This document shows, one piece after another, positions 2,705 through 44,402 of a stretch of 44,467 bases of DNA. The stretch lies in assembly GCA_018821305.1 (NCBI GenBank), contig JAHJMN010000056.1:1-44467 (forward strand). Direction: 5' to 3'. This DNA is from Myxococcota bacterium (GTDB lineage: Bacteria; Myxococcota_A; Polyangia; HGW-17). How positions within the stretch are numbered: the stretch's first letter is position 1; every line of letters starts with the position of its first letter. The notes under the pieces were generated by a model. The model ran no database searches and was not told the origin of the DNA. It was given only the letters and a program-made list of their open reading frames with translations. Both the position numbers and the translations under genes were made by a program.

Positions 2705-2732
2705 GTTCGTGTCCTGTAATTCGCTTGGCGAA
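2705..2732 (-). repeat. Fragment of the three-module interspersed repeat (cruciform end)
   Basis: GTTCGTGTCCTGTAATTCGC followed by GGCGAA matches the outer end of the cruciform module of the fuller copy at 19769-19911, in the same orientation. The rest of the element is missing. It lies in the 5' leader of the padR transcript predicted from the promoter at 2787-2814. Confidence 0.6.
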
Positions 2733-3131: not shown

Positions 3132-3611
3132 ATGTCCAGTGATGCGGAAGCCTATCTCCTTGCCGTGGATTTGGGGCTGAAAACGGGCCTCGCGCTCTTT
3201 GACAATCGTGGGACTCTTTTATGGTACCGTTCTCACAATGTGGGCAGCAGGGCAAATCTGAAACGGGCAGTCCATACCATTTTGCGCCAACTCACTTCAT
3301 TAAAATATATTTACGTTGAAGGCGATCGGGCCCTGGGGGAAATCTGGAAAAAAGAAGGTACAAAAGTCGGTGCGACTCTGACTTTTGTAAGTCCCGAAAC
3401 GTGGCGGGAAGTCTTCATGTATGAAAGACAAATGGAAGACAGTAAAACCGCAAAAGAAACAGCAGTAAAAATGGCCACAAGAGCTGTAGCACTTTTATCT
3501 CCGAATAAATCCCCAATCCCGCTTCGGCACGACACAGCGGAAGCCATTTTACTCGGAGTATACGCCATCTACAAAGAAGGATGGCTCGAAACCATCCCGG
3601 ATTTCGGGTAG
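3132..3611 (+). CDS. RuvC-like RNase H-fold nuclease, compact
   Basis: The protein has 159 residues when started at the ATG at 3132, which has GGAG at 3121-3124 placed 7 nt upstream. The in-frame ATG at 3126 is too close to that site. The fold resembles RuvC-type resolvases: a first strand LAVDLGLKTGLALFD with D13, a second acidic residue in YVEGD (E63), and a C-terminal helix RHDTAEAILLG with D134 and E137. E. coli RuvC uses D7, E66, D138 and D141, so the arrangement is conserved with a final Asp-to-Glu change. It may resolve branched DNA or be a related nuclease. It stands alone, with no ruvA or ruvB nearby. Family assignment is from motif reading only. Confidence 0.7.
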   Translation: MSSDAEAYLLAVDLGLKTGLALFDNRGTLLWYRSHNVGSRANLKRAVHTILRQLTSLKYIYVEGDRALGEIWKKEGTKVGATLTFVSPETWREVFMYERQMEDSKTAKETAVKMATRAVALLSPNKSPIPLRHDTAEAILLGVYAIYKEGWLETIPDFG

Positions 3612-3620
3612 TTCGCTCCC

Positions 3621-3850
3621 GAGTAATACGATTGTGACTCGGTTTAAAGAAATGCTTCAGGAATGAGCCCCCTGATTTCCTGTTCCTGCTTCTGATTTCC
3701 TGATTACCTGAAATTTTTAACAGGTAGACAGGCAGTCAGGAAACAGGGGCAGGATCAGGTCGTAACCATTTAACATCAAAGTAAAATTACAAAAATGGAA
3801 TAAAATATTCACTTTTTAGATTTCGATCCTTTTACTCCGCAAGCGGTCTA
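3621..3850 (+). repeat. CCTG/CAGG long-hairpin repeat, copy 1
   Basis: A head (3621-3670) leads into a long imperfect hairpin. The left arm, 3671-3710, repeats CCTG about every 7-10 bases. The loop is an A/T-rich run (3711-3720). The right arm, 3721-3759, repeats CAGG. A tail at 3761-3850 contains AACATCAAAGTAAAATTAC, TTTCGATCCTTTTACTC and GCAAGCGGTCTA. Copies at 9682-9900 and 43575-43760 share the hairpin design and tail. It sits between the convergent RuvC-like and tetratricopeptide-like genes, so it may also act as a transcription terminator. Confidence 0.78.
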
Positions 3851-3900
3851 GTAGCGGCCTGATAGGATTTTTATTAAAATCCTATTTCAGGACAGTAACT
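3851..3900 (+). repeat. Chimeric fragment of the three-module repeat
   Basis: GTAGCGGCCTGATAGGATTT matches one edge of the cruciform module (compare the reverse complement of 19796-19826). The closing TTTCAGGACAGTAACT matches the terminal inverted repeat of the other module. The middle is absent, so this looks like an internal deletion product. AGGATTTT and AAAATCCT still form a hairpin. It abuts the tail of the CCTG/CAGG repeat. Confidence 0.6.
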
Positions 3901-8846: not shown

Positions 8847-9683
8847 ATGATAAAGAAATCCTTCCTTCAGACGGGAAAGTTGCGAACGGCTCATCTTTCG
8901 GGAGGTTCGGGAGATCCAATCCTGTTTATCCACTCTATTCCCGGTACATCTTTTTTGTGGATGGATCATCTTGAGGCATTTGCCTCCACATTTTTCTGTT
9001 TTGCACCGGATATCTACGGATGCGGTGATACAACGGGGCCTTCGGATTCCGAGTATGATCTGGAGACCCTGAGCGATTCAATCTACCGCTACAGTACAAC
9101 ACTGGGAATTTCTTCAACTCATGTTGTTGCCCATGGAAACGGCGCCGCTGCGGCACTTATACTTGCCCTGCAAAAGCCCGGTTTTTTAAAATCACTGATA
9201 CTCATTAATCCCATGTTTGGATCCAATATCCCCGGAAAATTAAACCGGACTTTGATGATTCTGGCCAAACGACAGAGTTTATGGGATGCGGGATTTCATA
9301 CAGGGCTTATTCCGGGAATGATTCGACTCCACACAAAAGCACCGCATCAGCGGGAAAAATCAAGAGTTTATACAGGGGAAATACTGAGACCTTTTGAAAA
9401 TTCCACCGCAGCAAGAGCCAGGTTCCAGAAAGTTCTTAAGGATTTCAACCCCAAGTTGACGAAAACCCTCTGCCCTCACCTTCATCGGATCCAAGTACCT
9501 GTGGGCCTTGTAACGGGAAGCGAAGACCACGTATGTACGCCGGACTGGCTACTGGATTTTTCAAAGCTTTTCAATTCTCCGAAATGGGAAGTCATCAACG
9601 GCGGCAGCCATTTCCTGCCCCTCGAAGCCCCAGCTCAACTCACCGACTTCATAAATTCAGTTATAAATCAGACAGCTTCCTGA
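8847..9683 (+). CDS. Alpha/beta-hydrolase fold protein lacking the nucleophile serine
   Basis: The protein has 278 residues with a clear alpha/beta-hydrolase layout: strand and oxyanion region ILFIHSIPGTSFLW, then DIYGCGDT, a cap region at about 125-205, an acid-turn candidate D227 in VTGSEDHVCTP, and a histidine H255 in GGSHFLPLE. The nucleophile elbow reads VVAHGNGAAA (93-102), with Gly97 where Ser, Asp or Cys is expected; the codons CAT GGA AAC GGC are unambiguous. The other two triad positions are kept. It may be a non-catalytic or cofactor-independent variant, or use another residue. It is the last gene of the pyrE operon. A weak ribosome site suggests coupling to the preceding gene. Confidence 0.85.
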   Translation: MIKKSFLQTGKLRTAHLSGGSGDPILFIHSIPGTSFLWMDHLEAFASTFFCFAPDIYGCGDTTGPSDSEYDLETLSDSIYRYSTTLGISSTHVVAHGNGAAAALILALQKPGFLKSLILINPMFGSNIPGKLNRTLMILAKRQSLWDAGFHTGLIPGMIRLHTKAPHQREKSRVYTGEILRPFENSTAARARFQKVLKDFNPKLTKTLCPHLHRIQVPVGLVTGSEDHVCTPDWLLDFSKLFNSPKWEVINGGSHFLPLEAPAQLTDFINSVINQTAS

Positions 9684-9900
9684 GTAAAAGGATAGTGACT
9701 TAATTAAAAGAAATAATTCAGGAAATAGACCCTGATTTCCCTGTTTCGGTTACTGATTCCCTGTGTTCCTGAAATTTTTATCAGATAATCAGGAAGTCAG
9801 GATAACAGGGTCAGGATCAGGGCGTAACCACCCAATATCAATAACAATTAAAAAGAACGTAATTTTTAATTCAATTTCCCAATTTCGATCCTTTTATTCT
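9682..9900 (+). repeat. CCTG/CAGG long-hairpin repeat, copy 2
   Basis: The head starts at the stop codon of the hydrolase gene and aligns with copy 1 (GAGTAA, AAAGAAAT, TTCAGGAA). Hairpin arms lie at about 9730-9770 and 9782-9822 around an AAATTTTTAT loop. The tail has CCAATATCA and TTTCGATCCTTTTATTC. The arms differ from copy 1 in many places yet keep the CCTG/CAGG periodicity. It lies between two convergent genes. Confidence 0.78.
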
Positions 9901-19666: not shown

Positions 19667-19768
19667 TTTCTGTTCCTTTTAAAAATCCGTTTTCGTCTTA
19701 ACAGGATTGTATCCGTATATTTATTTGCCTTATCATGTTGTTATTACAACTATAAATGCAATCAAGTA

Positions 19769-19911
19769 GTTCGTGTCCTGTAATTCGCATCGCGAAGGAT
19801 TTTATTAAAAATCCTAACAGGCCACTACTCGTAAATTCAACACCTTGCGGTTACTGTCCTGAGTAAAAAATCGACAAAAAATTTGAAAAACCGTATTTCA
19901 GGACAGTAACT
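19769..19911 (-). repeat. Full three-module interspersed repeat (reverse orientation)
   Basis: Three parts are joined. A cruciform-like module (19769-19825) has outer CCTGT/ACAGG ends enclosing two hairpins, TTCGC-ATC-GCGAA and an AGGATTTT stem. A linker (19826-19849) carries the complement of GCAAGGTGTTG. A hairpin module has perfect 13-bp termini GTTACTGTCCTGA (19850-19862) and TCAGGACAGTAAC (19898-19910). The copy at 44246-44379 has the same parts in the opposite orientation. It lies in the 405-bp gap between pgi and the porin gene, which otherwise shows no gene. Confidence 0.78.
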
Positions 19912-20072
19912 AAGTAAGTAAAATCCAGTCAATCTCCAATACCATTAAAAGGTATAGCATACACTGCGCATGGTCAATTCAATTCTGTTTTAAGGGAAAA
20001 AATTAACAATCAGTACGCGGAATGGAGCGCTTGGGAAGCAAAGGATCGAAAACTGGAACTAATAAAAGCCAA

Positions 20073-21716: not shown

Positions 21717-21742
21717 TTCTTTACTCCGATTTTTTTTATTCG

Positions 21743-21777
21743 TTCGTGTTCTCTTGCATTTCGCATCGCGAAAATGC
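21743..21777 (-). repeat. Decayed cruciform-module fragment upstream of pgi
   Basis: GTTCGTGTTCTCTTGCATTTCGCATCGCGAAAATGC-type sequence matches the outer end of the cruciform module of the three-module repeat. It keeps the TTCGC-ATC-GCGAA hairpin, which is extended here by flanking GCAT/ATGC pairing. It sits in the 5' leader or promoter region of pgi. Confidence 0.55.
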
Positions 21778-21845
21778 TTGCCTGAAAATCAATTTTATCC
21801 AAATTGACCATGTTTAAGAAAACATGCCATTCAGAACACTGACTG

Positions 21846-32855: not shown

Positions 32856-32874
32856 TATCTTTCCATTTTTTCTC

Positions 32875-32966
32875 TACTGTCCTGAAATACAAAAAAATCA
32901 AATTTGTCTTCGATTTTTTGCTCAGGACAGTAACTGCAAGGTGTTGTATTTATTGTAGTGACCACG
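32875..32966 (+). repeat. Three-module repeat, hairpin and linker only
   Basis: TACTGTCCTGA (32875-32885) and TCAGGACAGTA (32922-32932) form a perfect 11-bp terminal inverted repeat around an A/T-rich core with its own weak symmetry. The linker GCAAGGTGTTGTATTTATTG follows at 32936-32955, then a short CACGAA end (32963-32968). The cruciform module is missing. It lies between pepN and the hybrid kinase, within about 5 bp of the kinase stop. Confidence 0.7.
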
Positions 32967-43574: not shown

Positions 43575-43760
43575 ATCCTGTTTCCCTGAATTCCTGTTTA
43601 CTGTCTACCTGAATACCTGAAATTTTAAACAGGGACTCAGGTAGTCAGGCAAACAGTGTCAGGTTCAGGGCTTAACCATTCAATATCAATGTAAAATTAC
43701 AAATGCTGAAAGAAGATATTCACTGTTCTACTCTCGATCCTTTTATTCCACAAGCGGTCT
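43575..43760 (+). repeat. CCTG/CAGG long-hairpin repeat, copy 3
   Basis: The hairpin has left arm 43575-43619 with CCTG every 7-10 bases, an A/T-rich loop, and right arm 43630-43670 with CAGG. The tail TCAATATCAATGTAAAATTAC, CTCGATCCTTTTATTC and CAAGCGGTCTAATA (43678-43762) is close to that of copy 1. The head differs from copies 1 and 2. A short GGGCACGAA end of the other repeat family follows at 43802-43810. The whole gap between rluB and the tRNAs holds only repeats and a promoter. Confidence 0.78.
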
Positions 43761-43838
43761 AATATTCCACCCTACTTTCCATATTTCGACCTTTTTACTC
43801 AGGGCACGAACCATTTTTCAAATCCTTATAATTTTTCC

Positions 43839-44186: not shown

Positions 44187-44245
44187 GACCGACTGCAATG
44201 AAACAAGCCCTCTTGCTTACGTTTCGCTCATCAACTATGATTAGT

Positions 44246-44379
44246 CTAAGTCCTGATTAAAAAAAGAATTCAAAAAATGAATTTTTATCAGGACATAGAC
44301 CACAAGATGTTGTATTTATAGGAGTGCCCTGTAAGAAATTTTAACAAATTCCTTCGCAAAGCGAATAACAGGGCACGAA
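44246..44379 (+). repeat. Full three-module interspersed repeat (forward orientation)
   Basis: Module A is a hairpin with ends GTCCTGAT (44250-44257) and ATCAGGAC (44287-44294). The linker ACAAGATGTTGTATTTATAG spans 44302-44321. The cruciform module has a perfect 9-bp outer stem, GTGCCCTGT (44324-44332) with ACAGGGCAC (44368-44376), enclosing an A/T-rich arm and the TTCGC-AAA-GCGAA hairpin (44353-44365). The outer stems differ from the 19769 copy but still pair. It lies directly upstream of the gene starting at 44403. Confidence 0.75.
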
Positions 44380-44402
44380 AAAACCTGTTTGGAAGGCGCA
44401 AG

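Follow-up and report, generated by a model that had tools for sequence, protein, structure and literature searches.

Prokaryotic MITEs with a known insertion sequence (IS) as partner have been described, an example being the 187-nt MITE of an ISL3-type IS in Microcystis (PMC11448079; review PMC10969869), and folded MITEs are common (PMC10969869; PMC2229807). The CIR elements of Caulobacter possess two long inverted repeats as arms with a linker, are intergenic, have a length of about 110 bp and are described as only partly MITE-like (PMC2229807). A third group, the REP/BIME repeats associated with RAYT, is made up of modular hairpins in mosaic or tandem arrangement, with paired changes in their palindromes and an abundance that is species-specific (PMC2817692).

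The window (the whole stretch of DNA analysed here, 44,467 nucleotides) contains copies of a repeat, designated family F1, which is very probably a MITE family of high copy number whose members are moved in trans by a DDE IS of the ISNCY type present in the same genome, judging from the comparison of their sequences. Like the IS-partnered MITEs, F1 is short, free of a transposase, intergenic, high in copy number and able to form stem-loops, and its terminal inverted repeats (TIRs) and target duplications match those of an IS. It differs from MITEs of the Microcystis type in having an ISNCY-type partner and a TANNTA target. It also differs from IS-partnered MITEs in consisting of two hairpin modules and a linker, where the known ones form one end-to-end stem, and in that its single modules also occur with duplications of their own. 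With CIR it shares two arms joined by a linker, an intergenic location and small size; unlike CIR, it has target duplications and a partner IS, and by inspection the GANTC motif is absent from its consensus. An IS-driven MITE is therefore an element of known kind, and its two-arm-and-linker layout is precedented in CIR (PMC2229807). A search limited to the open literature found no precedent for hairpin modules that move separately, combined with a TANNTA target and an ISNCY-type partner, so that the claim of novelty is a modest one.

Structure of the element and its copies in the window

The features identified in the window are as follows.

19763..19768, no strand: left target-site duplication CAAGTA (consensus TANNTA), from the sequence and the statistics of the 6-bp duplications
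19769..19910, + strand: complete MITE of family F1, 142 bp, from direct reading, alignment and BLAST
19769..19827, + strand: left module A, in which the left TIR GTTCGTGTCCTGT pairs with ACAGGCCAC and encloses two short hairpins (three-way junction)
19828..19849, + strand: single-stranded linker (..TAAATTCAACACCTTGCG) of about 22 nt
19850..19910, + strand: right module B, a 61-nt hairpin GTTACTGTCCTGA...TCAGGACAGTAAC which terminates in the right TIR
19911..19916, no strand: right target-site duplication TAAGTA, from the sequence and the flank table
44244..44380, - strand: second complete F1 copy, old and diverged, its target duplication gone, from alignment
32873..32966, - strand: truncated F1 copy with module B, linker and a remnant of module A
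3851..3899, - strand: 50-bp internal-deletion derivative, the inner half of module A joined to the outer end of module B
2705..2732, + strand: fragment, left end of module A only
21742..21843, + strand: F2-type left module of 102 bp with an extra F1-like arm, degenerate, target duplication not clear

The 142-bp element is short, carries no transposase gene and is bounded by the TIRs GTTCGTGTCCTG / GTTACTGTCCTG. Within module A, the left end is base-paired to an inverted near-copy that lies further inside the module, while the right end of the element is formed by the final 12 bases of the module B hairpin. Matches of the same length elsewhere in the genome show 90-95% identity by BLAST. The second complete copy diverges by 31% from the family consensus and can still be aligned end to end with the others (50 in the alignment). 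Both copies fold far better than dinucleotide shuffles, with z-scores of -5.7 (19769-19910) and -8.8 (44244-44380), and none of 200 shuffles was as stable as either. A sequence-only reading of the window had described a terminal-repeat hairpin, a linker and a two-arm cruciform; the fold of F1 is real and consists of a three-way-junction hairpin, a linker and a long hairpin.

That reading had also placed two full copies in opposite orientation, which is correct, together with a number of partial ones. Those starting at 2705, 3851 and 32875 are genuine, and so is 21743-21777, although it was called too short, being the start of the longer module of the sister family F2 at 21742-21843. The supposed copy at 43802-43810 comprises 9 nt and is no better than chance. 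At L057 (TAAGTA on both sides) and L011 (TATTTA on both sides), a single module stands by itself between matching flanks, and the same is seen with less perfect flanks at L059 and L053; these solitary modules measure 48-61 bp and explain the remark that each module can be present or absent.

Copy number, target duplication and empty sites

The first 20 bases of the element gave 265 left-end matches (at most two mismatches) in the 5.22-Mb genome, the reversed pattern giving two. The general terminus GTTNNTGTCCTGNAAT occurs exactly 655 times genome-wide, against two for its control; as a complete element has two such termini, this corresponds to roughly three hundred elements with good ends. The further copies anticipated from the window thus exist in their hundreds. 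The search of 59 relatives yielded no F1 copy beyond a single 29-nt match, and that of 317 genomes from the class, among them one other genome of the same genus, yielded none.

Tabulation of the flanks showed left/right agreement of about 0.8 at each of exactly six positions, with an abrupt drop outside, and a duplication of 5 bp was dropped in favour of 6 bp on this basis. After removal of double counting, 59 unique copies of F1 and F2 remained, and 31 of them had identical 6-bp flanks; 10,000 shuffles gave 4.6 on average and never more than 12. An exact fit to TANNTA was seen in 36 left and 38 right flanks of these 59, and 44 copies have the same two free central bases on both sides, where 10.1 would be expected. 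Since these bases are unconstrained, their agreement indicates true duplication and more than a mere target preference. Tandem copies have a single TANNTA in common between neighbours.

Two copies, L003 and L006 (the latter with TAATTA), sit inside copies of a second dispersed repeat. On removal of the element and one TANNTA, the remaining sequence aligns without a break to paralogues that lack the interruption, L003 at 83% over 129 bp and L006 at 80% over 135 bp; the empty paralogue of L006 carries TAATTA at the site. Judged by these paralogous sites, F1 inserted cleanly into a different dispersed repeat. The empty sites lie within that repeat family and are not between sister strains. In G001, a genome of the same genus, the genes flanking the orthologous site are on two different contigs.

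The second repeat is itself dispersed at high copy. It is about 230 bp in length (AGACCGCTTNCGGAGTAAAAGGATCGAAA ...), lies in the window at 3610-3850, 9670-9900 and 43575-43765, and is represented in 334 kb of the genome by tens of pieces located with BLAST, some MITE copies being hosted by it.

The probable partner insertion sequence

No transposase is encoded near the element, as had been noted; a matching one is present on another contig, C216. The likely partner is an IS of 1,679 bp, pieced together from sequence joined across contig ends, with a 450-aa transposase (P0001), whose gene is the only PF01609 match in the genome. The search for a partner covered the transposase families PF01797, PF01609 and PF00665, and no transposases of the rve type (IS3, IS21, IS30, IS481) were found in the genome. 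By far the best family for P0001 is ISNCY_1 (model NF033593), which it matches over nearly its whole length (E-value 1.2e-87); its score of 294 bits is below the model cut-off of 325, and it is hence a divergent relative. The D, D and E columns of the DDE catalytic residues are kept in an alignment with five distant relatives. The IS possibly belongs to the ISDol1 subgroup of ISNCY.

Downstream of the gene the IS ends in ATTTCAGGACAGTAAC followed by TATTTA, giving the right-end pattern ATTTCAGGACAGTAAC|TANNTA. The left end, TANNTA|GTTCGTGTCCTGAAAT, was read at six contig ends, which overlap the first 76-84 bases and run into GTTCGTGTCCTGAAAT preceded by TAACTA or TATTTA. The IS has GTTCG at its left end and GTTAC at its right, an asymmetry that the MITE ends reproduce side for side. 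Only about 16 bp per end are common to the two, so that simple internal deletion of the 1,679-bp IS does not account for the MITE. Distant relatives of P0001 in other genera (about 30% identity) are also bounded by duplications of the TANNTA type, that in G238 having TACCTA and similar ends (GTTCCCGTCCC) and others having TAGCTA.

With these same-ended IS termini in their TANNTA flanks, the copies, target duplications, paralogous empty sites and stem covariation bear out the suggestion of a non-autonomous MITE. The MITEs would carry only the ends recognised by the transposase, besides two hairpin modules and a linker. P0001 would bind ends of 12-16 bp (left GTTCGTGTCCTG[AT]AAT, right GTTACTGTCCTGAAAT) and cut out or copy the intervening DNA, and the element would be joined to a staggered cut at TANNTA, generating the 6-bp duplication. 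New copies inserting at the TANNTA beside an old copy could give rise to tandem runs with one common TANNTA. That P0001 is what moves the MITEs we infer from the matching ends, and the mode of transposition, cut-and-paste or copying, is likewise a matter of inference. With TANNTA as a defined target, the MITE and this IS would form a clean pair amenable to testing, in a transposase group that has received little study.

At L074, L075 and L076, IS ends adjoin (TAAC)n or (AACT)n runs, which possibly reflect several rounds of insertion and loss at TAACTA. A 99-bp hairpin MITE (L193, 82-180) with a TAAAGA duplication is present in the distant genome G238; its ends match the ISNCY-type IS of that genome, and a similar element lies at about 265-366 of L194.

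Genomic setting

Gene context was scored in 20 stretches of 11-19 kb around copies, which are thus biased towards copies. All 40 strand-wise records were intergenic, in stretches of which 13.5% is intergenic DNA; the counts are approximate, a few F2 elements having been counted once per strand. This placement fits selection against gene disruption. With respect to flanking genes, 12 records had the same and 15 the opposite orientation. It had been proposed that the element often sits in promoter or leader regions, but no preference for gene orientation or type of gap was seen, and there is no sign of a strand-specific host role.

Origin of the stem covariation

The observation that outer stems differ between copies yet still pair holds across the 50 aligned copies, where 97.9% of cells pair (94.3% when shuffled) and 42 cells are doubly changed, compared with 10.1 in shuffles and at most six in slid controls. 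The hundreds of copies are a natural record of stem matching in folded mobile DNA. Compensated states arise several times on a tree built from unpaired columns only, which is weakly resolved, and two alternative states of the stem, GAT/ATC and AAA/TTT, come up repeatedly over this tree. The sister family F2 (153 bp) has the layout of F1 with different inner arms.

There is an even chance that this covariation is mutational, template switching from arm to arm and recombination between copies having matched the arms with no selected function. Palindromes are known sites of arm-to-arm correction, and the recurrence of two stem states on the tree is what exchange between copies would give. Correction alone, however, would not predict a layout common to F1 and F2 with such unlike inner arms.

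It is possible, but doubtful, that the fold is selected, the interior having a function either in the DNA, as a cruciform and in presentation of the ends, or in RNA, where it would protect the element or a host transcript. The excess of covariation over both controls, the repetition of doubly changed states on the tree, the layout retained by F2 and the existence in another genus of the 99-bp hairpin element with its matching ends and TAAAGA duplication would all suit such a role. Against it, the left terminus of the IS shows no fold (-2.2 kcal/mol), from which it follows that transposition of the IS is independent of such a hairpin; the lack of strand preference speaks against an RNA role in the host, and arm repair with exchange between copies also yields paired changes. 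Correction with exchange is on balance rated somewhat likelier than selection for the fold.

A broader and rather speculative idea, thought improbable, is that the ISNCY-type transposases of this lineage repeatedly yield folded MITEs of modular build, both ends of which pair with inverted copies of themselves lying further inside. The fold would then be selected for mobility or for shielding of the ends, with the 61-bp hairpin as the minimal mobile unit and the common element as a fused pair.

At five loci (L013, L052, L056, L065 and L066) the same foreign insert (TCTCACTGTTTTCGATGAAAACAGTTGTCGTC...) is present at one point of module B, most simply explained by the composite having been moved or copied as a unit.

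Relation to REP-type repeats

The comparison to a REP-like unit is very unlikely to hold in the sense of a REP/BIME-type repeat spread by RAYT (a Y1 tyrosine transposase) on single-stranded hairpins: the modular hairpins in alternating orientation, the high copy number, the palindromes maintained through paired changes and the existence of three Y1_Tnp genes would suit it, and F1 also resembles REP/BIME in its mosaic and tandem arrangement and its species-specific abundance, but it has a 6-bp target duplication, ends that match a DDE-type IS and no GTAG-type REP, and no RAYT-like gene of the genome is bounded by it. To our knowledge, a target duplication is not expected from IS200/IS605 chemistry. 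Of the three Y1 genes, two are embedded in another repeat, which is GC-rich, and there is no F1 copy around the third; a lone F1 copy sits a few hundred bp from one of the former (C84). RAYT was accordingly rejected as partner, the Y1 genes being linked to other repeats or to none. On the preferred reading of F1 as an IS-driven MITE, a DDE transposase can give rise to a mosaic hairpin repeat with the look of REP/BIME.

The GC-rich REP-like repeat (GAGCTGAAGCTC ... GGCGTTCT), which surrounds two Y1 (RAYT-like) genes, is present in the window at 1089-1144 and 2887-2942, and elsewhere at L032 (1320-2010) and L031 (1001-2020). Beside the RAYT-like gene at L031 (2020-2400), ATTTCCGCTTCTGAAAAGAAGCGGCTCCATTGAAGC recurs at regular spacing and has the look of a CRISPR array.
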